Below are positions 7,964-31,179 of a DNA stretch of 32,584 bases, in pieces. Below the pieces are notes generated by a model that saw nothing but the letters and a program-made list of their open reading frames with translations, made no database searches and was not told the DNA's origin. This stretch comes from Gemmatimonadota bacterium (lineage in GTDB: Bacteria > Gemmatimonadota > Gemmatimonadetes > Gemmatimonadales > Gemmatimonadaceae). The stretch covers positions 1-32,584 of the forward strand of contig JAEKKK010000126.1 in the NCBI GenBank assembly GCA_019510405.1, read 5' to 3'. The translations under genes were made by a program, and so were the position numbers. Position 1 is the first letter of the stretch. Every line of letters begins with the position of its first letter.

Positions 7964-7998
7964 GGGGTCAGAGTCGGCGATTCGCCGACTCTGACCCC
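7964..7998. repeat. REP-like hairpin, 17-bp perfect arms
   Basis: GGGGTCAGAGTCGGCGA-T-TCGCCGACTCTGACCCC. Confidence 0.9.
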
Positions 7999-8025
7999 TT
8001 TCGTTGAGTTGCTGGAATGCGCCAA

Positions 8026-8054
8026 GGGGTCAGACACCTTCGGTATCTGACCCC
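8026..8054. repeat. REP-like hairpin, second copy
   Basis: GGGGTCAGA-cACCttcGGTa-TCTGACCCC. Confidence 0.85.
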
Positions 8055-8130
8055 AGCCCGCCCCTCATTCCGGGAGCCAGTATGCCAGTCTCGGTACCAG
8101 GTACCCAGTACTCGGTACTGGGAGTGGCCG

Positions 8131-10374: not shown

Positions 10375-11781
10375 ATGATCCTCCTCGCCCATCCGTACTT
10401 CCTTCGTGACGACGCGAAGCAACTGGCGCGGATGAAGCCGTACCCGCCGCTGGCCACCCTGCTCGCCGCGGCGGTGCTGCGCGATCAGGGTCACGACGTC
10501 ACGCTGTTCGACGCCATGCTCGCCGACGGGATCGACGCGTTCCGTGCCGCGCTCGCCGAGTCGCGGCCGGCCACGGTCGCGATCGTCGAGGACAGCTTCA
10601 ACTACATCACGAAGATGTGCACGACGCGGCTGCGCGACGCGACGATCGAGATGATCGCGGCGGCGCGCGAGCAGGGGTGCCGTGTCGTCGTGAGCGGTTC
10701 GGACGCCACCGACCATCCGCGCCGCTACCTCGACGGCGGGGCCGACGCGGTCTTCCTCGGCGAGCCGGAGGCGGCGCTCGCCGACGTCGCGGCGCTCTGG
10801 CGCGACGACCCCGCCGCGCCGCTCGACGCGATCGCCGGGCTGGCGGTGCGCGATGCCCTCACGCGTGAGCTGACTTTCACCGCGCCGCGCTCGGGGGTCC
10901 GCGACCTCGACGCACTACCGCTGCCGGCGTGGGATCTCGTCGACGTGGACGCGTACCGGCGCGTCTGGCGCGATGCCCACGGGCGGCATTCGTGGAACGT
11001 GGTGACGTCGCGCGGCTGCCCGTACGGGTGCAACTGGTGCGCGAAGCCGGTGTTCGGCCGCCGCTACGCGCAGCGCTCCCCCGCGTCGGTGGCGGAGGAG
11101 CTCCGCCGGCTCAAAGTCGAGGTCGGCCCCGACCACGTCTGGTTCGCGGACGACATCTTCGGGCTCACCCCGCGCTGGATCGCCGAATTCGCCGGCGAGG
11201 TGCGCGCGCGCGACGCGCGCATCCCGTTCATGATCCAGTGCCGCGCCGACCTGGTCACGCCGACGGTCGCGTGCAACCTCGCGCTCGCCGGCTGCGAGGA
11301 GGTGTGGATGGGCGTCGAGTCGGGATCGCAGCGCATCCTCGACGCGATGGACAAGGGCACCACGGTGGACGAGGTGCGCGAGGCGACGCGCGCCCTCCGT
11401 GCGAGCGGTATCCGCGCCTGCTGGTTTCTCCAGCTCGGCTATCCGTCGGAGCAGTGGGAGGACCTGCTGGCGACGCGTGATCTCGTGCGCGAGGAGCGCC
11501 CCGACGACGTAGGCGTCTCGGTCGCGTATCCACTGCCCGGCACGAAGTTCCACGCCGCGGTGCAGGCACAGCTCGGCGCGCGCACGAACTGGGAGGAGAC
11601 GGGCGAGCTCGCGATGCTCTTCCAGGGCACCTACACGACGGCGTTCTATCGCCGGCTTCGCGACGCGCTGCACGACGAGGTGCTGTACGGCGCCGACGAG
11701 CCGCGCTGGTTCGAGCTCGGCGAGGCGGCACCGGAGCATCGGCTCGCGCAGCCCGTGGGGCTGGCCGAGGTGGAGGATTAG
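10375..11781 (+). CDS. B12-binding-type radical SAM protein 1
   Basis: MILLAHPYF...PPLATLLAAAVLRDQGHDVTLFDAML; CPYGCNWC (CxxxCxxC); GVESGSQRILDAMDKGTT. Confidence 0.88.
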   Translation: MILLAHPYFLRDDAKQLARMKPYPPLATLLAAAVLRDQGHDVTLFDAMLADGIDAFRAALAESRPATVAIVEDSFNYITKMCTTRLRDATIEMIAAAREQGCRVVVSGSDATDHPRRYLDGGADAVFLGEPEAALADVAALWRDDPAAPLDAIAGLAVRDALTRELTFTAPRSGVRDLDALPLPAWDLVDVDAYRRVWRDAHGRHSWNVVTSRGCPYGCNWCAKPVFGRRYAQRSPASVAEELRRLKVEVGPDHVWFADDIFGLTPRWIAEFAGEVRARDARIPFMIQCRADLVTPTVACNLALAGCEEVWMGVESGSQRILDAMDKGTTVDEVREATRALRASGIRACWFLQLGYPSEQWEDLLATRDLVREERPDDVGVSVAYPLPGTKFHAAVQAQLGARTNWEETGELAMLFQGTYTTAFYRRLRDALHDEVLYGADEPRWFELGEAAPEHRLAQPVGLAEVED

Positions 11782-11782
11782 C

Positions 11783-12808
11783 GTGGAGGACGCGCTTGCC
11801 TTGACGCCGGCCATCGAGGCGTTCGACGCGGTTGCGGCGAGGTTCGACGCGCGCTTCGGCGCGTGGCGCAGTGTGGCGGCGCAGCGCCGCGCCGTGCGTC
11901 GCGCACTGGCGCGGGCGTTCCCGCGCGGCGCGCACGTGCTCGAGATCGGCGGCGGCACGGGGGAGGACGCACGCTGGCTCGCCGCGCGCGGGCGCGTCGT
12001 CCAGCTCACCGATGGCTCGCCGTCGATGGTGCGCATCGCGCGCGAGAAGCTGCGGTCGCAGCGCGGACCGACGCCGCAGGTCGTCGCCGCCGAAGCGCTC
12101 GAGCAGTGGGCGGCGGAGCGCGAGTCGGCGGGCGAGGCACGCTTCGACGGCGTGTTCTCCAACTTCGCCGCGCTCAATTGCGTCGACGATCTCGAAGGCT
12201 GTGCGCGCGGATTGGCGCGGCTGCTCCGGCCCGGCGCGCCCGCGCTGCTCGTCCTCTTCGGCACGATGTGTCCCGGCGAGGTGGTGGTGCAGCTCGCGCG
12301 CGGCGACGCACGCGCCGCGCTCCGTCGCCGCGCGCGCGGCGCGGTGTCCGCCCGGCTCGGCGGGCGCGCGTTCGACGTGCGCTATCACCGCGGCGGCGAC
12401 CTGGCCGCCGCGATGGGGCCCTGGTTCCGGCTGCGCCGCCGCATCGGCGTCGGTGTGCTGGTGCCGCCGAGCGCCGCGGAGCCGTGGATCTCGCGGCATC
12501 CGGCGCTGGTGCGCACCCTCGAGCAGATCGATCGCGTGCTGGAGCGCCCGCTCGCACCGCTCGGCGATCACGTGATGTACTGGTTCGAACGCACGGGGTC
12601 AGAGTCGCAGGGGTCAGAGTCGCACCGCCAAGGGGTCAGAGCCCTCGGGCTTCGCCCTCGGGGTCTGACCCCGGCGAACCCCAACAGGTCTGACCCCAGG
12701 CAGGTGCGGAGTGGGGGGTGGGGAGTTCACGAGCTCGGGATACTGCTGCCTTCCGAACGTGGGCGCTTTCACCCCTCACTTCCCACCTCCTACCCGCTCG
12801 GCTCGTGA
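11783..12808 (+). CDS. Class I SAM-dependent methyltransferase 1, C-terminus extended through REP repeats
   Basis: GAHVLEIGGGTGEDARWLAARG motif I; recognisable domain ends near HVMYWFERT, followed by repeat-encoded sequence from 12595. Confidence 0.8.
   Translation: MEDALALTPAIEAFDAVAARFDARFGAWRSVAAQRRAVRRALARAFPRGAHVLEIGGGTGEDARWLAARGRVVQLTDGSPSMVRIAREKLRSQRGPTPQVVAAEALEQWAAERESAGEARFDGVFSNFAALNCVDDLEGCARGLARLLRPGAPALLVLFGTMCPGEVVVQLARGDARAALRRRARGAVSARLGGRAFDVRYHRGGDLAAAMGPWFRLRRRIGVGVLVPPSAAEPWISRHPALVRTLEQIDRVLERPLAPLGDHVMYWFERTGSESQGSESHRQGVRALGLRPRGLTPANPNRSDPRQVRSGGWGVHELGILLPSERGRFHPSLPTSYPLGS
12595..12697. repeat. GGGGTCAGA / TCTGACCCC REP-like cluster inside the methyltransferase ORF
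   Basis: GGGGTCAGA at 12595, 12610, 12632; TCTGACCCC at 12664 and 12689; hairpin 12632-12672. Confidence 0.85.
12713..12790. repeat. Imperfect inverted heptamer arms of the GGAGTGG / CCCACCTCC type
   Basis: cggagtggggggtggggagttcac on the left versus tcacccctcacttcccacctcc on the right; G-rich arm then C-rich arm with approximate 7-nt period. Confidence 0.55.
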
Positions 12809-13617
12809 GCGCGTCGACGCCCGAGGTCCGCCGCCGCTTCCGCGAGCAGTACGCGGCGCACCGCGCCTCCGAGGGGCGCGGATCGTCCGCGGTGGATGCG
12901 CAGACACTTCCCTACGTCACCGACGGGGCGCTCGCGCGGCAGTGGGCCGTGCGCGCGCGGAGCTTCGAGGTCTTCCAGCGGCGCGTGCTCCGGCCGGCGC
13001 AGCGGCGGGCCGACGTCGACGCGAGTGGCACATTGCGCGTCCTCGACCTCGGTGCGGGGAATGGCTGGCTCGCGCACCGCGCGACGCTCGCGGGCGCAGA
13101 GGCGCTCGCGCTCGACGTGCGCGACGACGGCGTGGACGGGCTGGGCGCGGCACCACGCGACTCGTCGATCGCGCGCGTCGTCGGATCGTTCGAGGCGATT
13201 CCCCTGCGCAACGCGAGCTTCGACGTCGTCGTGTTCAACGCGTCGCTGCACTACGCCGAGGACCTCGGCCGCGCCCTCGGCGAGGCGCGGCGGGTGCTGA
13301 GATCGCGAGGGCGCATCGTCGTCCTCGATTCACCGTTCTATGGGAGCACGGAGCATGGTGAAGCAATGCTCCGCGCCAAGCGCCAGGACGCCGAGCGCCG
13401 GTTCGGCGCGCGCGCCGAGGCGCTGATGGCGCTCGCCGTCGTCGAGTACCTGACGCAGGAACGGCTCGCCGACGCGTCGCGCGGACTCGGGCTCGCGCCA
13501 TGGCGGCGGCACCGCGTCCTCTATCCGCTCTGGTACGAGCTGCGCGCGGTGCGCGCCGCGCTGCGCGGCGAGCGTCCGCCGTCGCGCTTCGACGTCTGGG
13601 AGGCGATCGCGGCATGA
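12805..13617 (+). CDS. Class I SAM-dependent methyltransferase 2
   Basis: GTG start overlapping the upstream TGA (GTGA); LRVLDLGAGNGWLAHRATLAGAEALALDV; FDVVVFNASLHYAEDLGRALGEARRVLRSRGRIVVLD. Confidence 0.85.
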   Translation: MSASTPEVRRRFREQYAAHRASEGRGSSAVDAQTLPYVTDGALARQWAVRARSFEVFQRRVLRPAQRRADVDASGTLRVLDLGAGNGWLAHRATLAGAEALALDVRDDGVDGLGAAPRDSSIARVVGSFEAIPLRNASFDVVVFNASLHYAEDLGRALGEARRVLRSRGRIVVLDSPFYGSTEHGEAMLRAKRQDAERRFGARAEALMALAVVEYLTQERLADASRGLGLAPWRRHRVLYPLWYELRAVRAALRGERPPSRFDVWEAIAA

Positions 13618-15011
13618 TCCTCTTCGTCAATCCGCGCGCGACGCGCCCGAAGAATCGCCGCTTCCCGCTGTCCGTCATGGCGATTGGCGCTGCGCTCCCT
13701 GCAGGGGAGTCCTGGCACATTGTAGACGGCAACCTTCCGGACGCGGACCCACTCGTCGAGTTGGTGGAGCGGGTAGAACGTGCACGAGGAAGCAGTGATC
13801 CCATCGCCGTCGTGGCGTTCACCGTGATGCCGGGCCCGCAGCTCGTCAGCGCCGTGCCCCTCGCGCGGGCGCTCAGGGCGCGCTGCCCCGAGGTGCAGGT
13901 CGTCTGGGGGGGCAATTTCGCGAGCCTCTATCCCGCGCCGGTGCTGGACGCGCCGTACGTCGACTGGGTCGTGCGCGGCCAGGGCGAGCACACCTTCGTC
14001 GAGCTGCTCGACGTGCTGCGCGGCGCGCGCGATCCGCACGACGTGGCGGGACTCGCGTTCCGCGAGCGGGACGGCAGCCATCACATCGGACCGGAGCGGC
14101 GCTGGGTCGGCCCGGACGAGCTGCCCGCGCCACCGTACCACGTGATCGACGTCGCCGAGTATCTGCATCCGACGGTGCTCGGCCGGCGCTCGGGGGTGTA
14201 CCAGGCGTCGATCGGGTGTCCGCACGGATGCAAGTTCTGCGGCGTGATCTCCGTCTTCGGCCGCAAGGAGCGCATGGGATCGGCCGCGCGCACGGTGGAG
14301 CACCTCGCGTACCTCGTCCGCGAGCACGGCATGGACTCCGTGCACTTCTACGACAACAACTTCTTCGTCAGCGAGCCGCAGGCGCGCGAGTTCTGCGAGC
14401 GCATCGCGCCACTCGGCATTCGCTGGTGGTGCGAGGCGCGCGTCGACACGCTGACGCGGTTCAGCGCCGACACCTGGCGCCTGCTCGCGCGCGCCGGGCT
14501 CGCGATGGTGTTCTGTGGCGCGGAGTCGGGCTCGGACGAGGTGCTGCGGAAGATGGATAAAGGCACCACCACCGCGCAGATACTCGAAGTGGCGGCGCGC
14601 ACGCGCGAGCACGGCATCATCCCCGAGTTCTCCTTCGTCTTCGGCGATCCGCACGATCCCGAGGGGGAGATCGACAACACGCTCTCCTTCGTCCGTCGAC
14701 TCAAAGGTGTCAACCCACGGCTGGAGCTCATCACCTACTTCTACACGCCCACGCCGCAGCGCCGCGGTACCTACGGGGACGTCGACGCGCTGAGCGGCAC
14801 ACCAGCGACGCTCGAGGAGTGGACGGAGCCCGCGTGGGTGGACTGGATGACGCACGAGAGCCCGCGCGTCCCCTGGATGAACGACCACCTGCGCGCGCGC
14901 GTGCTCGATTTCCAGACGGAGATGCGCACGCGCTATCCCTCCGTGCACGGCAGCGGCGTGGTCGACACGCAGGCCTATGGGCATCTGCGGCAGGCCGCCG
15001 TGATCCCGTGA
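13614..15011 (+). CDS. B12-binding-type radical SAM protein 2
   Basis: MILFVNPRATRPKNRRFPLSVMAIGAAL; WGGNFASLYP; CPHGCKFC (CxxxCxxC); GAESGSDEVLRKMDKGTT. ATGA overlap with the upstream gene. Confidence 0.9.
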   Translation: MILFVNPRATRPKNRRFPLSVMAIGAALPAGESWHIVDGNLPDADPLVELVERVERARGSSDPIAVVAFTVMPGPQLVSAVPLARALRARCPEVQVVWGGNFASLYPAPVLDAPYVDWVVRGQGEHTFVELLDVLRGARDPHDVAGLAFRERDGSHHIGPERRWVGPDELPAPPYHVIDVAEYLHPTVLGRRSGVYQASIGCPHGCKFCGVISVFGRKERMGSAARTVEHLAYLVREHGMDSVHFYDNNFFVSEPQAREFCERIAPLGIRWWCEARVDTLTRFSADTWRLLARAGLAMVFCGAESGSDEVLRKMDKGTTTAQILEVAARTREHGIIPEFSFVFGDPHDPEGEIDNTLSFVRRLKGVNPRLELITYFYTPTPQRRGTYGDVDALSGTPATLEEWTEPAWVDWMTHESPRVPWMNDHLRARVLDFQTEMRTRYPSVHGSGVVDTQAYGHLRQAAVIP

Positions 15012-15676
15012 CCACGCTGCGGCCGGCGGAGGCGTACGCACTCTGGGCACCGCGCTACGCGGCGGAGACGGTGATCAGCGCGCTCGAGTACGTCGCGGTC
15101 GAGTCGCTCGGCGTGGAGCTGCGCGGCCGCCGCCTGCTCGACGTTGGCTGCGGCATCGCGCGACGGCTGACGCAGGCGCGGGAGAGCGGCGTCGCGCTCG
15201 CGGTCGGCGTCGATCTCACGCCGCGCATGCTCGCCGAAGCGCGCGAGGGAGAGCTGCTCGCGGCGGCGGACGTCCGCGCCATTCCCGTCGCCGACGCGGC
15301 GTTCGACGTCGTGTGGTGCCGGCTCGTGCTCGGCCATCTCTCCGATCTCGACGCGGCATACGCCGAGCTGGCCCGCGTCTGCGCACGCGGCGGACGCGTC
15401 GTCGTCACGGACTTCCATCCCGATGCGGTGGCAGCCGGACATCGTCGCACCTTCCGCGACGCCGAAGGCGTCGTGCAGGAGATCGAGCACCACGTGCACA
15501 CGCCGCGCGCGCACCGGCGCGCCGCGGCCCGGGCGGGCCTGACCCTCGTCCAGCGCTTCGATCGCGTCGTGGGGGAGACGGTGCGCGGCTTCTACGAGCG
15601 CGCCGACCGACTGGACGTGTACGAGCAGCAGCGCGGGCTGGCGGTCGTGCTCGGGCTCGCGTTCGTCCGCGCCTGA
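15008..15676 (+). CDS. Class I SAM-dependent methyltransferase 3
   Basis: GTGA start/stop overlap; RLLDVGCGIARRLTQARESGVALAVGVDLTPRMLAEAR; ARVCARGGRVVVTDFHPDAV. Confidence 0.87.
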   Translation: MTTLRPAEAYALWAPRYAAETVISALEYVAVESLGVELRGRRLLDVGCGIARRLTQARESGVALAVGVDLTPRMLAEAREGELLAAADVRAIPVADAAFDVVWCRLVLGHLSDLDAAYAELARVCARGGRVVVTDFHPDAVAAGHRRTFRDAEGVVQEIEHHVHTPRAHRRAAARAGLTLVQRFDRVVGETVRGFYERADRLDVYEQQRGLAVVLGLAFVRA

Positions 15677-15686
15677 GGAGCTGCAC

Positions 15687-16775
15687 GTGCGCCTGCTCGT
15701 CGAGGCGGCAGACGGAGCGCTCGGCATCGCCGGCGGACGCATCGTCGCGCCGAGCGGCGACTTCGACGTGATACTGCGGGTACCCGACGGCCTGTTGCGG
15801 CCGGGCCTCGTCAACGCGCACGACCACCTGCACCGCAACCACTACGGCCGGCTCGGTGCGCCGCCCTACGCGAACGCGTACGACTGGGGACGCGACATCC
15901 ATGCGCGCCACGCCGACGCGATCGCGCGCGGGCGTGCGCTGCCGCGCCGCGAGGCCCTGCTGCGCGGCGCGTGGAAGAATCTGCGCGCGGGGGTCACGAC
16001 CGTCGTGCACCACGATCCATGGGAACCCGCGTTCGAGGCGGACTTCCCGCTGCGCGTCGCGCGCGTGGCGTCGGCGCACTCGCTCGGCTTCGGGGGCGAG
16101 CTTCCGGCGCCGGTTCCAGGTGCACCGTTCGCGATCCATCTCGCCGAAGGGGTCGACGCCGCATCGGCGGCGGAGGTCGGCGCGCTCGCCGCACGCGGAC
16201 TGGTGACGCGCGATCTCCTCGCCGTGCACGCCGTCGGCGTCGACGACGCCGGGATCGCGCTGCTGCGCGAGCGCGGCGCGGCGATCGTGTGGTGTCCGAG
16301 CTCGAACCGATTCCTCTTCGGGCGCACCGCGCCGGCCGCGCTGCTCGCGCCGGGCATCGACGTGCTGCTCGGCAGCGACTCGCTGCTCACCGCGGACGGC
16401 TCACTGCTGCGTGAGCTGCGGGTCGCGCGCGAGACGGCGCTGGTGGACGACGACCGATTGCTCGACGCGGTCGGCGCGGTGGCGGCACGGCGCATCGGCG
16501 TGGAAGCGCCGGCGCTGACGGCCGGCGCGCGCGCCGACGTCGTCGTGCTGCGGCGGCCATTGCTCGGGGCGAGCGAAGCGGACGTCGCGCTCGTCGTGGC
16601 GAACGGAGTGTTGCGCGTCGCCGATCCGGCGCTCGTGCCCGCGCTCGGCGCGCTCGCGGACGCGGGCCGCCTCGAGACGCAGGACGGCGTGGTGCGGTGG
16701 ATCGGCGATCAGCGGGTGTCGTCGCCGGAGCGCGGCCTGGCGACGAGCATCGACAGCAGCCGGGCGGCGCGATGA
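15687..16775 (+). CDS. Amidohydrolase-family protein (SAH deaminase / chlorohydrolase-like)
   Basis: GLVNAHDHLHRN, FAIHLAEG, AVHAVGVDDAG, IVWCPSSNRFLFG, VLLGSDSLLT follow the amidohydrolase metal-site order. Confidence 0.82.
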   Translation: MRLLVEAADGALGIAGGRIVAPSGDFDVILRVPDGLLRPGLVNAHDHLHRNHYGRLGAPPYANAYDWGRDIHARHADAIARGRALPRREALLRGAWKNLRAGVTTVVHHDPWEPAFEADFPLRVARVASAHSLGFGGELPAPVPGAPFAIHLAEGVDAASAAEVGALAARGLVTRDLLAVHAVGVDDAGIALLRERGAAIVWCPSSNRFLFGRTAPAALLAPGIDVLLGSDSLLTADGSLLRELRVARETALVDDDRLLDAVGAVAARRIGVEAPALTAGARADVVVLRRPLLGASEADVALVVANGVLRVADPALVPALGALADAGRLETQDGVVRWIGDQRVSSPERGLATSIDSSRAAR

Positions 16776-18016
16776 CGATAGGCCAGCCAGCGGGCGCGGA
16801 GCGGCACCCCCTCGAGCGGCGCGATCATCCGCCAGAACCGGCGCACGGTGGCGCGGACGCCGGAGGTCCACATGAGCCGTTCGTCGAGGGAGAAGCGTTC
16901 GTCGACGACCGGCGCGGTGGGCGTGAACCGGCTCGTCACGGCGCGAATGCGGCGCGTCGTGTCGGCGCGCAGCCGCGCGAGCACCGGGGCCGGCACGGTG
17001 TGCGGCGCGAGCTGCTCGGCGAGGGAGAGCAGGGGATAAGCGAAGCGGCGCGTGCCGCGCGCGGCGAGCGACGCGTCCACCGCGCCCCAGTCGAGGCGGC
17101 CGAGCGCATCGGCGCGGCGTACGACGAGCACGAGCTCCACGAGCCGCAGCAAACGCTGCGTGTAGAGCTCCGTCGAGCCGTGCGTCGCGAGCAGGGCGAT
17201 CAGCTCGTTCGGCTCGCAGACGCGCAGCGGGACATCGTCGATGCGCAGCAGGGCGGCGAACACCGGCGTCTGCCGCGTGCGCACCACCTGCATCACGGCG
17301 GCGAAGTTCAGTCCGTCGTGCAGGTCGAGCTTCCACGGATTGCGCGCGTGCCAGAGCTCGTGCGAGCGCACTGCGTCGTCGCCATCGGAGGGCGTCCACT
17401 CGCTCTTGGCGCCCTGCTCCGAGCGCACCGCGTACTCGCTGGTGAACCCTGCCTCGCGGAGCAGCTGCATCGCGCGTGGCACGTGCTCCGGCGCAACGAC
17501 GACGTCCACGTCCGCCGTCGGCCGCGCGCCGGCTTCGGGGAAGTACTCGTGCGCCGTGTGAAAGCCCTTGATGACGCCGGGTGCCAACCCGGCTTCCTCC
17601 ATGCGCGCCAGCACCGGCAGGACGCCGGTGCGGACGCGAGCCGCGCGCGCCCGGTTGTGCGCGAGCTGGCGCGCGAGCAGGTGCGTCGCGGAGTCGTCCG
17701 CGGTGAGCATCCCGCGCTCGAGCCAAACGCCGAGCAGCGGCCCGACGCCGGTCAGCAGCGCGGCGACGCCAAGGGCGCGGGTGCTCCGCTCGCTCGTCGT
17801 CTCCCACCGCAGCGTCGCGTCCTCGCCGCGCAGCACATCGGCCACGGCGACGCCGATCGCGTCCGCGGCGCGCTGCAGCACGCCGGCATCCAGCCCGGGC
17901 CAGAGCGCGCCGGCGCGATGCGTCGAGTGCCACGCTTGCGCGCGCCGGCGCATCTCGTCGGCCGGTGCGTCGGGTGGGTCGTCGAGCGGCGTGAAGGGGA
18001 GCGCGTGATCCGTCAT
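16709..18016 (-). CDS. Nucleotidyltransferase family protein (PF14907-like)
   Basis: PGVIKGFHTAHEYFPEAGARPTADVDVVVAPEHVPRAMQLLREAGF (KG..RPTADVDVVV) and LWHARNPWKLDLHDGLNF. Confidence 0.78.
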   Translation of the reverse strand: MTDHALPFTPLDDPPDAPADEMRRRAQAWHSTHRAGALWPGLDAGVLQRAADAIGVAVADVLRGEDATLRWETTSERSTRALGVAALLTGVGPLLGVWLERGMLTADDSATHLLARQLAHNRARAARVRTGVLPVLARMEEAGLAPGVIKGFHTAHEYFPEAGARPTADVDVVVAPEHVPRAMQLLREAGFTSEYAVRSEQGAKSEWTPSDGDDAVRSHELWHARNPWKLDLHDGLNFAAVMQVVRTRQTPVFAALLRIDDVPLRVCEPNELIALLATHGSTELYTQRLLRLVELVLVVRRADALGRLDWGAVDASLAARGTRRFAYPLLSLAEQLAPHTVPAPVLARLRADTTRRIRAVTSRFTPTAPVVDERFSLDERLMWTSGVRATVRRFWRMIAPLEGVPLRARWLAYRHRAARLLSMLVARPRSGDDTR

Positions 18017-18027
18017 GCGGGGGCGAC

Positions 18028-19167
18028 GTGCTGAGCGTCGTACAGGTGAGCTTCATCCCCGAAGCCGAGCGGCGCGACCCGGAGACGCTGCTGGCCGCCT
18101 GGCCCACGCTCGTCAACGTCGCGGCCAGCGTGGCTCGTGCCGGCGTGCAGCTAACAGTAGTGCTGGCCGCGGTACGCGACCAGATGATCGAGCGGGACGG
18201 CGTGCGCTACGAGTTCGTGGACGACGGGCGCGCCGTGCCGCGCCGCTCCCCGGTGCGGGGCGGCCCCGTGCGCCGCAGCGCCGACGTCATCGACCATGTC
18301 GTCGCGCTCAGCCCGGACGTCGTGCATCTGCACGGGTTCGTGCGCCCCCTGCTCGCGCGCCGGCTCCGCGCCGCCCTGCGCCACGTCCCACTGCTCGTGC
18401 AGGACCACGGCTCGCACGTCCCCACCGGGGCGCGACGGCTCTTCTGGCGCCTCGCCTTCAACGAAGTGGACGCGGTCGCCTTCGCGGCACGCGAGCAGGC
18501 CGTGCCCTTCCTCGACGCAGGAGTCCTGCGCCGCGACACGACGGTGTTCGAGCTGTTCGAGGACTCGACCTGCCTCGGCATCGGAGACCGCGACGCGGCG
18601 CGCGCCGCCACGGGATTGTTCGGCGACCCCTGCATCCTGTGGACCGGGCGTCTCGACGCCAACAAGGATCCGCTCGTCGTGCTCGACGCGTTCGAGCACG
18701 CTGCGCCTCAGCTCCCCGACGCGCGGCTCTGGTGCCGCTACGGCGACGCGCCCCTGCTCGGCGCGGTCGAGCGGCGCATCGCCGCGTCGCCGATCCTCCG
18801 CGAGCGCGTGACGCTGCTCGGCCCGTGCACGCACGCCGAGATGGAGGCGCACTACCGCGCGGCCGAGCTGTTCGTGCAGCCGAGCCATCGCGAGGGGTGC
18901 AGCTACTCGACCATCGAGGCCCTCGCCTGCGGCGTGACGCCCGTCGTGAGCGACATCCCCTCCATGCGGCGGATCGTCGGCGACGCCGGCAGGTGCGTCC
19001 CGCTCGGCGACGTGACCGCGCTCGCCGCGGCGATCGTCGAGGTGGCGCGGCGTGATCCGGCGCCGCGTCGCGCCGCGGCTCGCGCACGATTCGAGAGTGC
19101 GCTCAGCTACGAGCACGTCGGCCGTGCGCTGCGCCGCGCCTACGAGACGATGGCGGGGCGCGCATGA
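18028..19167 (+). CDS. GT4-like glycosyltransferase 1
   Basis: CILWTGRLDANKDPLVVLDAFE; FVQPSHREGCSYSTIEALACGVTPVVSDIPSMRRIVGD. Confidence 0.88.
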   Translation: MLSVVQVSFIPEAERRDPETLLAAWPTLVNVAASVARAGVQLTVVLAAVRDQMIERDGVRYEFVDDGRAVPRRSPVRGGPVRRSADVIDHVVALSPDVVHLHGFVRPLLARRLRAALRHVPLLVQDHGSHVPTGARRLFWRLAFNEVDAVAFAAREQAVPFLDAGVLRRDTTVFELFEDSTCLGIGDRDAARAATGLFGDPCILWTGRLDANKDPLVVLDAFEHAAPQLPDARLWCRYGDAPLLGAVERRIAASPILRERVTLLGPCTHAEMEAHYRAAELFVQPSHREGCSYSTIEALACGVTPVVSDIPSMRRIVGDAGRCVPLGDVTALAAAIVEVARRDPAPRRAAARARFESALSYEHVGRALRRAYETMAGRA

Positions 19168-20291
19168 AGCTCGCCGTCGTCACGCCGGGCGGTGTGGACG
19201 AGAGTGGGACGGAGCGCGTCATCCCCGCCTTCCTCTGGCTGATCGAGCGGCTCGCGCGGCGCCACGACGTGCACGTCTTCGCCCTCTCGCAGGAGCCGCG
19301 GCCGCGCGACTGGACCCTCCTCGGCGCAACGGTGCACAACGTCGGCACGGTGGGGGCGCGCTGGCTGCGCTTCCAGCGGCTCTTCGCGCGCGAGCATCGC
19401 GTCGCGCCGTTCGACCTCGTGCACGCGCTGTTCGGCGGATCGGCGCTGCACGCCATCGCCATCGCGGCGTGGTACCGGCTCCCCGTGCTCACGCATCTCA
19501 CCGGCGGTGAGCTCGTGGGACTCCCGGAGATTGGCTATGGCGCGCAGCTCCGCCGGCGCGGGCGTCTGCAGACGCGCCTCATCGCCGCGGGATCGACGCG
19601 CATCACCGTCGGCACGACGCACATGCGCCGATTGGCTGAATCGTTCGGCATCGACTCGGACCTCGTGCCACTCGGCGTCGCGCTCGATGCATGGCCGCCG
19701 TGTGCGCCGCGCGTGCGCGATGGGATGCGGCCGGCTCGGCTGCTCCACGTGGCCGACCTGCGGCCGGTGAAGGACCAGCCCATGCTCCTCGCGGCGACGG
19801 CGATGCTGCGCGCGCGGGGCATCCCGTTCGAGCTCCACATCGCCGGCTTCGACACGACGAACGGTGCCATCGCGCGAAGCGCGGGTGCGCGCGCCGTGGA
19901 CGACGTCGTGCACTGGCACGGCCTGCTCGCGCGCGCGCCCCTGCGGCGACTCATGGAGGAGAGCGACCTGCTCGTGCACACGTCGCGGCACGAAGCGGGG
20001 CCGATCGCCGTGCTCGAAGCCGCGCTGGCCGGCGTGCCGACGGTCGGGACCGACGTCGGTCACGTGAACGAGTGGGCACCCGATGCGGCCGTCGCCGTCC
20101 CCGTCGGCGACGCGCGTGCCCTCGCCGAAGCGATTGCGTCGCTGCTCGTCGACGAGCCACGCCGTCTCACCATGGCGCGCGCGGCGCAGCGGCGCGCCGT
20201 CGCGATCGACGCGGACTACACCGCGCTGTCGTTCGAGCGGCTCTACGCCGTGCTGCTCGAGAAACGCGGACGAGCGGCGCGGGTCAGGTGA
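19164..20291 (+). CDS. GT4-like glycosyltransferase 2
   Basis: LLHVADLRPVKDQPMLLAATAML; LVHTSRHEAGPIAVLEAALAGVPTVGTDVGHVNEW; ATGA overlap with the upstream gene. Confidence 0.88.
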   Translation: MKLAVVTPGGVDESGTERVIPAFLWLIERLARRHDVHVFALSQEPRPRDWTLLGATVHNVGTVGARWLRFQRLFAREHRVAPFDLVHALFGGSALHAIAIAAWYRLPVLTHLTGGELVGLPEIGYGAQLRRRGRLQTRLIAAGSTRITVGTTHMRRLAESFGIDSDLVPLGVALDAWPPCAPRVRDGMRPARLLHVADLRPVKDQPMLLAATAMLRARGIPFELHIAGFDTTNGAIARSAGARAVDDVVHWHGLLARAPLRRLMEESDLLVHTSRHEAGPIAVLEAALAGVPTVGTDVGHVNEWAPDAAVAVPVGDARALAEAIASLLVDEPRRLTMARAAQRRAVAIDADYTALSFERLYAVLLEKRGRAARVR

Positions 20292-21588
20292 GGGCGTGCT
20301 CCGTGATCGAGCGCGAAGCGTGTGATGCGGCTCGCGCTTCCGCTCCGGCCGCCAACTGCGCGAACGCGGCGCGTCCCAGCCCGATCTGCCGCTCGGTTGC
20401 CTGCAGGATCGCGGGACGCAGCTCGTCCGCATGCGCGAACATCTGCTCCGTCGTCTGCTCGAGACGGCCGGCGAGATCCGGCTCATCGACCATCAACGTC
20501 TGGCACCCGTCGCCGAACAGGTCGGACAGCCCCTTGAACTTGTCCTCGTAATACGGGCTGCCGGCAAGCCCCACGGCGGGGACACCGCTGGCGAGGGCGA
20601 ACACCGCCGAATGGTAGCTCCCAGTGACCACGACTCGACATCTGTGCACCATTCTCATCGCATCCTCGGGCCGATCGCTTCCTTCCACCGCCGATGTGTC
20701 GGTGTCGCCGATCAGCATTCGGATCGAATCGAGATCCGCTTCCCCCGGCACGCGCGAGATCGGCACCGGGACGAGCTCGGCCCCCTGGTGGCGCGCGACG
20801 TTGCCGAGCGCAGTCTGCACTGCCGGAACGATGGACGTCCCGACTCCCGCGTAATCCGCGATCCGGAGATTGACGCCGATCTCGTCACCCAGGTGATCCG
20901 TTCGGATCCGGTATGCCGGCTCGAGCGTATCGTCACCGGTCACGACGATGCGCTCCCTGCTCACCCCCAGTGAGAGGAGCAATGGGACACTCGCGCGTTC
21001 TTCGCGCACGGCGATCAGATCGACACGTGGGAGGACGGCACTCGCGAGCGCGCGCAGTTGCGGATCCTCCAACGGGCCGAACCCCTGGCCGATCATGGCC
21101 GTGTAGCGGCCCGCGTGCGTCGCGAGTGCGAGCGTGTCGAGGAGACCTGTGGCAAATTCGGAGAAGGCATCCGTGACGCCGCCCATGCCGGTGACGATGA
21201 CCAGATCGGCCCGAGTGACCAGCGAGTGGAATTTCTCCAGCTCAGTGAGCGCCACCGAATCACCGCGCAGGCGCAGCATGAACTGCTTTACCTTGAACCA
21301 CACTCCCGGGCGAGCGAAGCGCAGGCGATCCTGCGGCGGGATCGGGAGGCGGCGGCCGATCCTTCCCAGCGTTTCCCGTCCTTCGTCCTGGAGCCAGATC
21401 CTCCGCCCCTTCGACGAGACTGGCGTCGCACGCGGTGCGAGGCGAACGAGCCCTTCGGGATCATCCGTGAACACATCGATGCGAGCGTCCGGCCAGTGCT
21501 CGGCCATGCGCGCGACCGCTGCCTGCAGCATCGCCATGTCGCCGATGTTGCGCATCACGTAATCGCTCGGCTCAACGACGATGTGCAC
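20284..21588 (-). CDS. Polysaccharide pyruvyl transferase family protein
   Basis: MRNIGDMAMLQAAVARMAEHWP; TGMGGVTDAF; AVREERASVPLLLSLGV; VVTGSYHSAVFALASGVPAVGLAGSPYYEDKFKGL. Confidence 0.85.
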   Translation of the reverse strand: MHIVVEPSDYVMRNIGDMAMLQAAVARMAEHWPDARIDVFTDDPEGLVRLAPRATPVSSKGRRIWLQDEGRETLGRIGRRLPIPPQDRLRFARPGVWFKVKQFMLRLRGDSVALTELEKFHSLVTRADLVIVTGMGGVTDAFSEFATGLLDTLALATHAGRYTAMIGQGFGPLEDPQLRALASAVLPRVDLIAVREERASVPLLLSLGVSRERIVVTGDDTLEPAYRIRTDHLGDEIGVNLRIADYAGVGTSIVPAVQTALGNVARHQGAELVPVPISRVPGEADLDSIRMLIGDTDTSAVEGSDRPEDAMRMVHRCRVVVTGSYHSAVFALASGVPAVGLAGSPYYEDKFKGLSDLFGDGCQTLMVDEPDLAGRLEQTTEQMFAHADELRPAILQATERQIGLGRAAFAQLAAGAEARAASHASRSITEHALT

Positions 21589-21699
21589 AGGTCACCAGAC
21601 CGCGGCTTTCGGAAGCGGGGAGACTCGGATGCTCGAACGAGATCTAATGCCATTGCGAATTGCGTGCTCGTCCGTCGAGTCGCCCACCCGAGGAAGTCG

Positions 21700-22620
21700 A
21701 TGAGCGGTGCAATCAGGATCGAGCTTCCCGTGCTCGGCATCGCCACGCGCTTCGAAACAAATGACGCAGAGGTCGCACGTTGCGTCGACGAAACGTTTGG
21801 AATGTGGCGCACACTCATCGATCGACGCGTGACGCATGTCACGGGGCACCCGCCGCTCCTCGTGCGCGTGGACGTAGTGGAGGGAGACGAAGGGCCGCTT
21901 CCACCCGGCGGCCACGCGAACGTGCGCTACTCCCTCCCCGACGAGACGCGCGTCGTCGTGGAGACGCCGGCGAGCGTCGCGGTGAGCGATCCGCTGCGGC
22001 GCCAGGCGACGGCGCGGGTGACGAGGGGGCTCGTCGCGGACCGGATGCACTTCCGCACGGAGGTCCTCGAGGCGGTGACGCTCGCGCTGCTGTCGCACTT
22101 CGATCGGCATCCGGTGCATGCGGGTGCCGTGGCGCTGAACGGGCGCGCCGTGCTGTTCGCCGCGCCGAGTGGGACGGGAAAGAGCACGCTCGCCTATCAC
22201 TGTCATCTCGACGGGCTCGACCTGCTCGGCGACGACCACGTGCGCGTGCAGCTCGACCCGCGCGTGCGCGTGTGGGGGTGGCCGTCGCGTGTGCGGCTCC
22301 TCGCGCGTGAGGCAGGGGGCGAAGGCGCAGCGTCCGACGCGGTGAAGGAAGTGGTCCATCTCGACAGCGGGACGCTTCTCGTCGCCGACGAGATGCGCGT
22401 GTGCTGTCTCACGCGCGACGGCGGCCCCGCCTCACTCGAGCCGGTCGATGCCGCGACGCTCGCGAGCACCCTCGACGCACAGCTCGCGCCCGGCTTCGAT
22501 CGGTTTCCCGCGCGGTGGCCGGCGGTGCGCGACGCACTCGCGGCGCGTGGAGGGTGGCTGCTGAACCTGTCGCGCGATCCGCGCGAGGGCGTCCGACTCG
22601 TGCGCCGCGTCTTGAGCTGA
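21700..22620 (+). CDS. HprK-like P-loop kinase
   Basis: HPVHAGAVALNGRAVLFAAPSGTGKSTLAYHCHLDGLDLLGDDHVRV (HprK-type Walker A and GDD); SD aggaag before ATG. Confidence 0.8.
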   Translation: MSGAIRIELPVLGIATRFETNDAEVARCVDETFGMWRTLIDRRVTHVTGHPPLLVRVDVVEGDEGPLPPGGHANVRYSLPDETRVVVETPASVAVSDPLRRQATARVTRGLVADRMHFRTEVLEAVTLALLSHFDRHPVHAGAVALNGRAVLFAAPSGTGKSTLAYHCHLDGLDLLGDDHVRVQLDPRVRVWGWPSRVRLLAREAGGEGAASDAVKEVVHLDSGTLLVADEMRVCCLTRDGGPASLEPVDAATLASTLDAQLAPGFDRFPARWPAVRDALAARGGWLLNLSRDPREGVRLVRRVLS

Positions 22621-22669
22621 AGACCCGGTGTCGCGCGACGACGCTCACGTCACGCGCGACGGCGGCCGA

Positions 22670-22879
22670 TCATGGCTCGGTCGCGATGCCGTAGTGGTCG
22701 AAGCTGTGGAGGTCCCAGCTGACTTCCCCACCAGCACACGCCACCTTGTCGTTCGAGGTCCTGGGCGCCGGCGGCGTCGCCAAGCGGCCCCGAATCAGAG
22801 CCCGCCAGGAGCGAAAGGAAAATCGCCGGTTGCGAGACATACCGGGCGCGGCTGTGTGGGCATGCGAGGATGACGACAT
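22670..22879 (-). CDS. Candidate small peptide (69 aa; shorter 56-aa form from 22841)
   Basis: MSSSSHAHTAAPGMSRNRRFSFRSWRALIRGRLATPPAPRTSNDKVACAGGEVSWDLHSFDHYGIATEP; the 3' half has strong GC3 bias and is not Arg-rich like shadow ORFs. The frame stays open upstream to 23443. Confidence 0.35.
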   Translation of the reverse strand: MSSSSHAHTAAPGMSRNRRFSFRSWRALIRGRLATPPAPRTSNDKVACAGGEVSWDLHSFDHYGIATEP

Positions 22880-27379: not shown

Positions 27380-29912
27380 GTGACGAGCGAGTCCCCGGCC
27401 ACGGTCGCCGACCGCGCCGACGACCTCCGCATCGTGCACGTGCGCACGCTGGGTGGGCCGAACCTCTGGCGCCTCGCTCCAGTGGTGCTCGCCGAGCTGC
27501 ACGTCGGCTCACTCGCCGAGTCTGCACCGGACGACGTGCCCGGATTCAACGACCGACTGCTGGCCGCGCTGCCCGGGTCCAGCGACGTGAAGGTCGAGCG
27601 CCCGTCGCAGTGGACCGCGTCATGGGCCGACGCGCTCGTTCGCGTCGCGCTCGAGTTGCAGCGACTCGCCGGCGCGCCCGCCACGTTCGGACGCGTCGTG
27701 TCGCACGCGCAGGGGCTGTGGACGGTCGTCGTCGGGTTCGCTCGTGATGCTCGAGGCGGCGCGACAGCGTGGGATCCCGGTGCGCCGGAATCCGGATGAC
27801 GGCGTCGTGCAGCTCGGGCTCGGCGCGGCCCAGCGGCGGCTGCACGCGACGATGACCGATGCCACGAGTCTGATCGCGACGGAGATCGCATCGGACAAGC
27901 ACCGCACGAAACGGGTGCTGAAGCGCGCCGGGCTGCGCATTCCCGAAGGCGACACGGCGCGCACGCTCGACGGCGCGCTGGAGATGGCGGAGGACATCGG
28001 CTTCCCGATCCTGCTCAAGCCGCTCTCGGCGAACAACGGCCGCGGCATCTCGGGGCGCATCGACACACCGGAGGGGGTGCGCGCGGCCTGGCCGCTCGCC
28101 GCGGCCGAGCATCAGGTCGTCGTCGTCGAGCGGTTCGCCGAAGGGAACGACCACCGCGTCGTGGTGGTGAACCGGCGCGTCGTCGCGTGCGTCGAGCGGG
28201 TGCCCGCGCACGTCGTGGGCGACGGACGCCGCAGCGTGCGTGCGCTGGCCGAGGAGATCAACCGCGACCCGAAGCGGAACAAGGCCGACCCCCGGTCGCC
28301 GCTCGCGCCGCTGCCACTCGACGCGCTCACCTCGGCGCACCTTGCACGCGCGGGTCGCACGCTCGACACCGTGCCCGACGACGGGGAGATAGTCTTCCTT
28401 CGCGCGACGGCGAACATCTCCACCGGTGGCACCGCGATCGACCGCACCGACGTGATCCATCCACGGAATCGTGCGCTGTGCGAGCTCGCGGCCGGCGCGG
28501 TGGGGCTCGACGTCGCCGGCCTGGACGTGCTCACGCCGGACATCGCCGTGCCGTTCGACGAGAATGGCGCCGTGGTGATCGAGGTGAACGCGTCGCCCGG
28601 CATCCGGATGCACACGGACCCCGACGCCGGCGTGCCGCGCGACGTGCCCGGCGCGATCCTCGACATGCTCTTCCCCACCGGCGCACCGACGACGATCCCC
28701 GTGCTCGCCGTCACCGGCACCAACGGCAAGACGACGACGACACGGCTTCTGGCGCATCTCTTCCGCACGACGGGGAAGCGCGTCGGATTCACCACCACCG
28801 ACGGCGTCTACTTCCAGCAGCACCTCCTGCTCGAGGGCGACCTCACCGGCCCGTTTGCCGCGAGCATCGTCCTCTCGCACCCGGACGTGGACGTCGCCGT
28901 CCTCGAGACGGCGCGCGGAGGGATTCTCCGCGCCGGACTGGGCTTCGACGCCTGCGACGTCGGGGTCGTGCTCAACGTCAGTGCGGATCACCTCGGGCTC
29001 GATGGCATCGACACGCTCGAGCAGCTCGCCGAGGTGAAGGGGGTGATCCCCGCCGTCGTGAAGCCGGGTGGACACGCGGTGCTCAACGCGGACGACCCGC
29101 GCGTGCTGGCGATGCGTGCGCGCACGCCGGGCACCGTCGTCCTGTTCTCCACCGCGCCGCCGGGCGAGAACGGCGACGTGGAGGCGCAGCTGGCGCGCGG
29201 CGGCATCGTCGCGCGCGTGGAGCACGACGGCAACGACGAGCGGATCGTCATCCGCGAGGGCGCGCGATGCGCGGCGCTCGCGACGGTGCGAGAGCTCCCG
29301 CTCACCTTCGGCGGCGCGGCGCGCTTCCAGATTCAGAACCTGCTCGCCGCGTCGGCCGCCGCGTACGCGCAGGGAATGCCCGTCGAGAGAATCCGCGAAG
29401 GGTTGCTCGGCTTCGTGCCGTCCGCCGAGCACACGCCCGGCCGGCTCAACGTGATCGAGACCACGCGTGGCCGGGTGATCGTCGACTACGCACACAACGC
29501 CGCCGCCGTCGCGGGACTCCTCGACTTCGTCGGGCGCCTGCCGGCGGAGCGGCGCATCGCGGTCATCAGCGTGCCGGGCGACCGACGTGACGAGGATCTG
29601 CGCGAGGTCGGCGCGCTGGCCGCGGGGATGGACTACGTGATCTTCAAGGAGCACGAGCACTATCGTCGCGGCCGCGCGCCGGGCGAGGGCGCGCGTGTCC
29701 TGGCGGAAGGGCTGCTCGCCACCGGTTTCGCGCCCGATCGCGTGGCGACCTTCCGCGAGGAATCCGACGCGGTCGCGCACGCGATCGGCCTCATGTGTCC
29801 TGGCAGCGTCGTCGCGCTCATCGTCGATGGGCCGGAGGTGGTGGAGCAGTTCCATCCCTACCTCGTCCCGCCCGGGACGGCCGATGCACGACGCCAGGGC
29901 GTGACGGCGTGA
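27380..29912 (+). pseudogene. cphA: Cyanophycin synthetase, interrupted near 27735-27746 by a frameshift with an apparent N-terminal-domain deletion
   Basis: Frame 1: LRIVHVRTLGGPNLW...WTVVVGF. Frame 2: LVMLEAARQRGIPVRRNPDDGVVQLGLGAAQRRLHATMTDATSLIATEIASDKHRTKRVL...VLAVTGTNGKTTTTRLLAHLF (ATP-grasp plus Mur ligase). Large intact ORF 27744-29912. Confidence 0.85.
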
Positions 29913-30000
29913 CGATGCGCGCACGACGCGTGCTCCATCGGGAGCCGAGGCACATTCTCTGCGCTTCGATGGCGCGCGCACATCCCCGGACGGAGACGCC

Positions 30001-31179
30001 ATGCACACACTGATCGAGAACGGCGAGGTCTACGCCCCGCAGCGCCTGGGACAGCGCTCCGTGCTCCTCGCCCATAGCAAGATCGCCGCGGTGGGCCGCG
30101 TGAGCCGCGCCGCGCTCGAGTCGCTCGGCGTCGAGCACGAGATCATCGACGCCGAGGGGTGCCTCGTCACGCCCGGCTGGGTCGACCCGCACATCCACCT
30201 GCTCGGCGGCAGCGGCGAGGAGGGGTTCAGCACGCAGACGCCCGAGTTCTTCGTCGACGAGATCGTGCGCTACGGCTTCACCACCGTCGTCGGCTGCCTC
30301 GGCGTGGACACGACGATGAAGACGATGCCGGGGCTGCTCGCGAAGGCGAAGGCGCTGGAAGAGGAAGGGCTCAACGCGAAGATCTGGACCGGGGGCTACA
30401 ACGTACCACCGACGACGATCCTCGGCTCGCCCCGCGAGGACATCATGTTCGTCCACGAGGTGCTCGGCGTCGGCGAGATCGCCATCAGCGACAAGCGCGG
30501 CATGGACCCCGACCCGCGTGCGCTCGCGCAGATCATGCACGACGCCCACATCGGCGGGATGCTCGCGAAGAAGGCGGGGCTCACGCACTTCCACGTCGGC
30601 GAGGGCGAGCGCCGACTGGCCAAGCTGCGCCAGGTCGTCGACGAGTTCGACGTCGAGCCGTCGTGGATCTACGCCACGCACATCGAGCGCAGCGAGGCGC
30701 TCATGCGCGAGGCGATCGAGCTGGCCGGTCGCGGCGCCGCGGTCGACATCGACACGGTCGAGGGAGATCTCGCGCGCTGGCTGCGCTTCTACTTCGACAA
30801 CGGCGGCGACCCGGACCGGCTCACCCTCTCGTCGGACGCGTCGGTCAACAGCCCGCGCGCCTTCGCCGAGCAGGTCTGCGATTGCATCCTGCACCACGGC
30901 TTTCCCATCGAGCAGGTGCTGCCGCTGGTCACGTCGAACACGGCGCGCATCCTCAAGTGGGAGGAGAAGGGCACGCTCGCGCGCGACAAGATGGCGGACG
31001 TGCTGGTGATGGAGCGCGACACACTGAATCTCCGCTACGTGTGGACGAAGGGGCGCTGCATGGTGCGTGACGGTGAGCTGGTCGCCCACCCGACATGGCT
31101 CGAGGAGAGCAAGCGCGAGATCGTGCTCCGGGGTGACGAGCGGCCCAAGCGCCAGGCCGAGGTACCGGCCGAGCGGTAG
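30001..31179 (+). CDS. Isoaspartyl dipeptidase-like amidohydrolase (IadA-type)
   Basis: GCLVTPGWVDPHIHLLGGSGEEGFSTQTPEF; GGYNVPPTTILGS; LTHFHVGEG; LSSDASVNSPR. Confidence 0.85.
   Translation: MHTLIENGEVYAPQRLGQRSVLLAHSKIAAVGRVSRAALESLGVEHEIIDAEGCLVTPGWVDPHIHLLGGSGEEGFSTQTPEFFVDEIVRYGFTTVVGCLGVDTTMKTMPGLLAKAKALEEEGLNAKIWTGGYNVPPTTILGSPREDIMFVHEVLGVGEIAISDKRGMDPDPRALAQIMHDAHIGGMLAKKAGLTHFHVGEGERRLAKLRQVVDEFDVEPSWIYATHIERSEALMREAIELAGRGAAVDIDTVEGDLARWLRFYFDNGGDPDRLTLSSDASVNSPRAFAEQVCDCILHHGFPIEQVLPLVTSNTARILKWEEKGTLARDKMADVLVMERDTLNLRYVWTKGRCMVRDGELVAHPTWLEESKREIVLRGDERPKRQAEVPAER

Follow-up and report, generated by a model that had tools for sequence, protein, structure and literature searches.

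In some lasso-peptide clusters, a kinase and an NTP_transf_5-type protein form an accessory set. PsmK and PsmN have been shown to phosphorylate and hexosylate a peptide serine, and the residues H-K-D-D have been shown to be important in lasso-peptide kinases (PMC9266682). In mycofactocin clusters, a SPASM radical S-adenosylmethionine (SAM) enzyme is accompanied by a glycosyltransferase (PMC3023750). HprK-like kinases also occur with radical-SAM/SPASM or nucleotidyltransferase proteins in the polysaccharide-type HprK_rel_A systems and in the SynChlorMet (SCM) cassette. Bottromycin clusters combine several B12-radical-SAM methyltransferases with an amidohydrolase and a methyltransferase. Here, we describe a cluster of eleven genes, g1 to g11, at positions 10375-22620 of a 32,584-nt stretch of DNA (the whole of which we call the window). 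It comes from a 3.7-Mb draft genome (327 contigs, 77% complete) of a soil bacterium whose kin are Gemmatimonadota.

The cluster is a genuine, uncharacterised and widely shared biosynthetic unit: the kinds of enzyme are known, and their combination matches none of the classes tested. A preliminary description of this DNA had listed two radical-SAM enzymes, three methyltransferases, an amidohydrolase, a nucleotidyltransferase, two glycosyltransferases, a pyruvyltransferase and an HprK-like kinase; all eleven are present, each with intact catalytic motifs (Table 1). The literature open to searching, which is only part of the whole, yielded no paper describing the cluster.

Conservation and transfer of the cluster

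We scored co-occurrence in 151 genomes of the window's order. The amidohydrolase gene, g6, is found in 8 genomes and g4 in 9, with all 8 shared (P ~1.6e-12); in the ninth g4 genome, G053, a contig end falls inside g4. The kinase gene occurs in 13 genomes, 7 of which also carry g4 (P ~2e-7). We also scanned ~85,000 species genomes for g4 and retained the best 80 loci, about five of which duplicate genomes already sampled. These loci belong to Gemmatimonadota, alphaproteobacteria (Sphingomonas, Altererythrobacter, Caulobacter, Gluconacetobacter), Acidobacteriota and one member of Planctomycetota. The system thus spans four phyla, a breadth that lies beyond the window itself.

The neighbours of g4 recur in almost all of the ~80 loci, in both content and order. 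The core reads B12-radical-SAM, two methyltransferases, B12-radical-SAM, methyltransferase, amidohydrolase, and it recurs with the HprK-like kinase, NTP_transf_5 and glycosyltransferase family 4 (GT4) genes. When only loci of 18 kb or longer are counted, the kinase occurs in 6/6 from Gemmatimonadota, 14/14 from alphaproteobacteria and 12/26 from Acidobacteriota; B12-radical-SAM genes number up to five in acidobacterial loci, and those of this length most often have five. Two GT4 genes are found in the Gemmatimonadota and alphaproteobacterial loci. Together, the co-occurrence of g4 with g6 and the recurring content and order show that the gene set is more than chance. Ten of the eleven genes are not chance neighbours; they are co-inherited, which bears out the earlier proposal of an uncharacterised tailoring cluster. 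That proposal would have been weakened by homologous loci with scattered genes; in the loci compared, the genes stay together.

The exception is g10, the pyruvyltransferase gene, to which nothing corresponds in the other loci compared; it is a local addition rather than a conserved part. The GC content at third codon positions is 0.81 for g10 and g11 together, versus 0.91. The product had been predicted to be heavily modified, glycosylated and probably phosphorylated or pyruvylated. Methylation, glycosylation and probable phosphorylation fit the conserved genes; pyruvylation as a pathway step is unsupported, because g10 has no relative elsewhere.

Could routine capsule or lipopolysaccharide (LPS) genes simply lie beside unrelated metabolic genes, as a merely local grouping? 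The GT4 and pyruvyltransferase genes of the window, and the glycan neighbours of its relatives, would fit this explanation. However, the order of the six core genes is conserved across phyla and the genes are co-inherited, which already contradicts a local grouping. Moreover, the window contains no initiating transferase, flippase (Wzx) or polymerase (Wzy), genes that are present beside only some relatives. We regard this explanation as very improbable.

Pairwise distances between the cluster genes are mostly correlated (rho ~0.5-0.8), the lowest value being 0.16 for g5/g7, for which there are few pairs. In a g4 tree (midpoint root, short search), the alphaproteobacterial sequences form one supported group inside those of Gemmatimonadota. 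This nesting suggests that the cluster has moved between phyla. Two genomes of the same genus without the cluster (G022, G142) also lack the right-hand flanking gene, so they show no clean empty site.

Core enzymes and the kinase

Both g1 and g4 combine Radical_SAM and B12-binding domains with the CxxxCxxC motif, as do members of the cobalamin radical-SAM superfamily. The motif is kept in 73/73 g1 and 86/86 g4 orthologues, and g1 identity across Gemmatimonadota is 57-77%. Both proteins score far below every NCBIfam equivalog (BchE, HpnJ, HpnR, ApyD, AprD4 and others), the best being 116-124 of 481 bits, for BchE. The predicted structure of a g4 orthologue from genome G056 (predicted local distance difference test score, pLDDT, 90) is nearest to MgmA, AprD4, TsrM, OxsB and TokK; among solved structures in the Protein Data Bank, AprD4 ranks first in a sequence comparison with the g4 profile and second in fold. 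The likeness to these five enzymes, and to BchE and HpnJ, lies in the fold of the g4 orthologue, the CxxxCxxC motif and the B12-binding domains, but identity is ~20% and no equivalog cut-off is approached. A B12-binding domain alone leaves methylation unproven, since the closely matching structures include a diol dehydratase, AprD4. The substrate of AprD4 is the aminosugar paromamine.

Compared with all aligned relatives, the g4 protein of the window is 38 residues shorter in its C-terminal region, through an in-frame deletion at window positions 14949-14966. This loss may affect activity, or may have no effect. Many relatives have an additional SPASM radical-SAM gene (PF13186), between g5 and g6 or adjoining g6, a feature beyond the window; no close copy was found in the source genome, which is itself incomplete. 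Clusters with many radical-SAM enzymes often carry out unusual chemistry.

The full set of metal and acid residues is present in g6 (H45, H47, H151, E154, H181, D231) and is invariant across 34 orthologues. The top Foldseek matches of its AlphaFold2 model (pLDDT 92.8) are adenosine and isocytosine deaminases and triazine hydrolases. With its HxH, H, HxxE and D residues and modelled fold, g6 belongs to the cytosine-deaminase-like amidohydrolases.

The kinase, g11, has the conserved motif H...GxGKS...DD, and the H-K-D-D residues typical of lasso-type tailoring kinases are kept in most of ~45 aligned kinases. It is below the cut-offs of both HprK_rel_A (TIGR04352; E=1.4e-7, 31 bits, cut-off 200 bits) and the SynChlorMet protein ScmC (TIGR04249; 19.2 bits, cut-off 125), and, in contrast to those systems, there is no PqqD-family partner near the cluster. 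Among the closest known systems are PsmK/PsmN (pseudomycoidin) and PadeK (paeninodin), which share the combination of an HprK-like H-K-D-D kinase and a nucleotidyltransferase-type protein. However, no precursor or B1/B2 genes were found with our cluster and no cyclase is among the called genes of the window, its six core genes are of a different kind, and PqqD is absent from several whole genomes that carry it. Three loci (L033, L034, L035) have the kinase with NTP_transf_5 and/or a GT2 gene and lack the radical-SAM core; the kinase/NTP_transf_5 pair is therefore a separable module. At L172 (9358-13821), a weak kinase match has beside it probable PqqD-like, NTP_transf_5-like and ABC exporter genes, a lasso-like grouping without B12-radical-SAM genes.

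Substrate and product

What does the cluster make? Our preferred reading, with a probability of roughly 0.45, is that it is a horizontally shared (mobile) island that tailors an envelope-destined substrate made elsewhere, for which an amino sugar or an oligosaccharide unit is the likeliest candidate. The substrate would come from elsewhere in the cell because no cluster gene makes a scaffold. A sugar-based envelope product is favoured by the glycan genes that flank relatives, by the sugar-type genes of a divergent cluster and by the similarity to AprD4.

The cluster is linked to glycan genes. Polysaccharide genes (sugar transferase, Wzy, Wzz, SLBB, CapD-type, glycosyltransferase) flank 28/60 loci with enough flanking sequence, versus 5/40 control windows of 20 kb drawn at random from four of these genomes (P=4e-4). 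The divergent cluster is the second one in a Gemmatimonadota genome, G043 (L169, 1896-14203; L171, 10685-15125). It has four B12-radical-SAM genes, methyltransferases, the kinase, both GT4s and a SPASM radical-SAM gene, together with genes for four further enzymes: PIG-L de-N-acetylase, GNAT acetyltransferase, GDSL esterase and sulfotransferase. Sugars are common substrates of these last four kinds of enzyme. The preliminary description had named flanking surface-polysaccharide genes as a possible explanation for every gene of the set. Such genes are indeed enriched, but they leave the radical-SAM/methyltransferase/amidohydrolase core unexplained, and several loci, including L071 and L092, have no such neighbours.

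The order of steps, the reactions and the substrate are as we infer them. Two B12-radical-SAM enzymes would methylate or otherwise remodel unreactive carbons, assisted in relatives by the SPASM enzyme, and three SAM methyltransferases would add further methyl groups. The amidohydrolase would take off an amino, imino or amide group, the kinase would phosphorylate a hydroxyl, and the NTP_transf_5 protein and GT4 enzymes would add a sugar cap or extension. The product would then be incorporated in a surface glycan or exported; ABC exporter genes are paired with NTP_transf_5 in several relatives.

Several observations weigh against a sugar-based envelope product. The neighbourhood query proteins were drawn from the loci themselves, related loci are not independent and the controls come from only four genomes, so the glycan enrichment is supportive only. 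The most compact locus, L071 from Planctomycetota, has the kinase, radical-SAM, methyltransferase, amidohydrolase and NTP_transf_5 genes and an adjoining ABC exporter, but neither GT4 nor glycan genes lie close to it. A porin plus a cupredoxin, or cytochrome c-DUF5777, adjoins several of the loci from alphaproteobacteria and Acidobacteriota. Finally, the only experiments that we found on a kinase/NTP_transf_5 pair concern lasso peptides (PMC9266682). The main rival is an exported peptide or small molecule.

In a pathway like those for ribosomally synthesized and post-translationally modified peptides (RiPPs), the substrate of the radical-SAM enzymes, methyltransferases and amidohydrolase would be a ribosomal peptide whose gene lies outside the cluster; the kinase and NTP_transf_5 protein would phosphorylate and glycosylate this peptide as in paeninodin and pseudomycoidin, and an ABC transporter would export it. 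The accessory set in lasso clusters, the action of PsmK/PsmN on a peptide serine and the conserved H-K-D-D residues are consistent with this, as are the NTP_transf_5/ABC exporter pairs of six loci (L051, L055, L060, L065, L067, L071), the last of which manages without GT4. SPASM enzymes, present in relatives, are common in RiPP pathways, and several B12-radical-SAM genes with an amidohydrolase recall bottromycin. However, we found no conserved precursor ORF of 20-110 residues in the gaps or among the called genes in or beside the loci. YcaO (PF02624) is absent from 14/14 cluster-bearing genomes, which, with the missing precursor, separates the cluster from the bottromycin type. Searches of five cluster-bearing whole genomes gave no PqqD-like B1 protein, or RiPP recognition element (PF05402). 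The lasso B2 peptidase (PF13471) is absent from 5/14 cluster-bearing genomes, and its matches elsewhere are never beside the cluster. The earlier remark that no lasso cyclase, PqqD or transglutaminase-like protease is visible is right for the window, and these searches support it for PqqD and for the peptidase near the cluster; no asparagine-synthase-like cyclase is among the called window genes, although no search aimed at it was made. Mycofactocin differs in that no peptide or chaperone partner was found here and B12-type radical-SAM enzymes dominate. Given also the glycan genes beside many loci, we consider a RiPP-like pathway unlikely. A 93-residue Gly/Trp-rich repeat ORF directly after the amidohydrolase gene of L066 (13158-13439) was rejected as a precursor, having no relative in other loci.

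An exported small molecule that is neither peptide nor glycan (a modified heterocycle, a nucleoside, or a redox or metal-binding factor) could act together with a porin and, in the periplasm, a cupredoxin or cytochrome. The amidohydrolase falls in a group of N-heterocycle deaminases, L071 is compact and has its own exporter, and the porin/cupredoxin/cytochrome c-DUF5777 set occurs in 0/40 control windows. At L051 (13283-18463) and similar alphaproteobacterial loci, the core is repeatedly followed by genes for a BBP2 porin, a cupredoxin, a subtilase and extracytoplasmic function (ECF) sigma/anti-sigma factors; in Sphingomonas and Caulobacter, those downstream of it include cupredoxin and beta-barrel porin genes. 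Some acidobacterial loci have porin-like, cupredoxin-like and cytochrome c-DUF5777 genes nearby. Nonetheless, the association is not seen in Gemmatimonadota, the window included, the query proteins were picked from the loci themselves, the acidobacterial cupredoxin reading is unconfirmed by Pfam, and no enzyme makes a scaffold. We judge such a product distinctly improbable.

The cluster could extend the kinase/NTP_transf_5 pair, familiar from lasso peptides, to another substrate class. We also propose, tentatively, that the island, having moved between phyla, produces bacterial molecules of a chemically new class, radical C-methylated and phosphoglycosylated, that lies outside recognised natural-product and glycan classes. 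The cluster matches no curated family and is present in culturable Sphingomonas, Caulobacter, Gluconacetobacter, Terriglobus and Silvibacterium, which makes it directly testable.

Layout and surroundings of the genes

Genes g1 to g5 are coupled head to tail by a 1-base gap or 4-base overlaps, and g6 starts 10 bases after g5. On the opposite strand, g7 runs towards g6 and overlaps it by 67 bases; on its other side, 11 bases separate it from the divergently transcribed g8, and g8 and g9 share a 4-base overlap. All cluster proteins but the kinase g11, which has no Pfam match, have Pfam matches above gathering, and none passes an NCBIfam cut-off. There is no convincing gene at window positions 22621-22879.

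Table 1. Genes of the cluster, with positions in the window
Gene	Predicted product	Position	Strand	Features
g1	B12-binding radical-SAM enzyme 1	10375..11781	+	468 aa; CxxxCxxC at RGCPYGCNWC; PF04055 3e-22, PF02310 2e-11
g2	SAM methyltransferase	11783..12808	+	VLEIGGGTG; PF13649 7e-13
g3	SAM methyltransferase	12805..13617	+	VLDLGAGNG; PF08241 5e-16; 4-base overlap with neighbours
g4	B12-binding radical-SAM enzyme 2	13614..15011	+	465 aa; PF04055 2e-16, PF02310 2e-11
g5	SAM methyltransferase	15008..15676	+	PF08241 4e-18
g6	Amidohydrolase, cytosine-deaminase/TRZ-ATZ type	15687..16775	+	PF01979 2e-9
g7	NTP_transf_5 protein	16709..18016	-	PF14907 2e-23; KG...R...DVD motif with D-x-D; compare PsmN
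g8	GT4 glycosyltransferase	18028..19167	+	PF13692 2e-22
g9	GT4 glycosyltransferase	19164..20291	+	PF00534 3e-22
g10	Polysaccharide pyruvyl transferase (PS_pyruv_trans)	20284..21588	-	PF04230 9e-31
g11	HprK-like P-loop kinase	21700..22620	+	TIGR04352 below cut-off; intact H-K-D-D

Repeats of the GGGGTCAGAGTC type are inserted at the 3' end of g2, lengthening the gene. The GGGGTCAGAGTC and GGGGTCTGACCCC repeats are dispersed in several copies (window positions 7966-8055, 12597-12700, 23555 and 24241), and one group extends the end of g2.

No riboswitch was matched by Rfam in four loci. We rejected a role in anti-phage defence, for which PADLOC gave nothing beyond generic methyltransferase hits to mad2 and a single weak radical-SAM hit. 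MacAB-TolC and KUP genes to the left of the cluster are common to one same-genus genome only (L040, L009); they are absent beside the other loci and are therefore excluded. Farther to the right, window positions 27380-31179 hold cyanophycin-synthetase-like genes, followed by an amidohydrolase gene resembling isoaspartyl dipeptidase.

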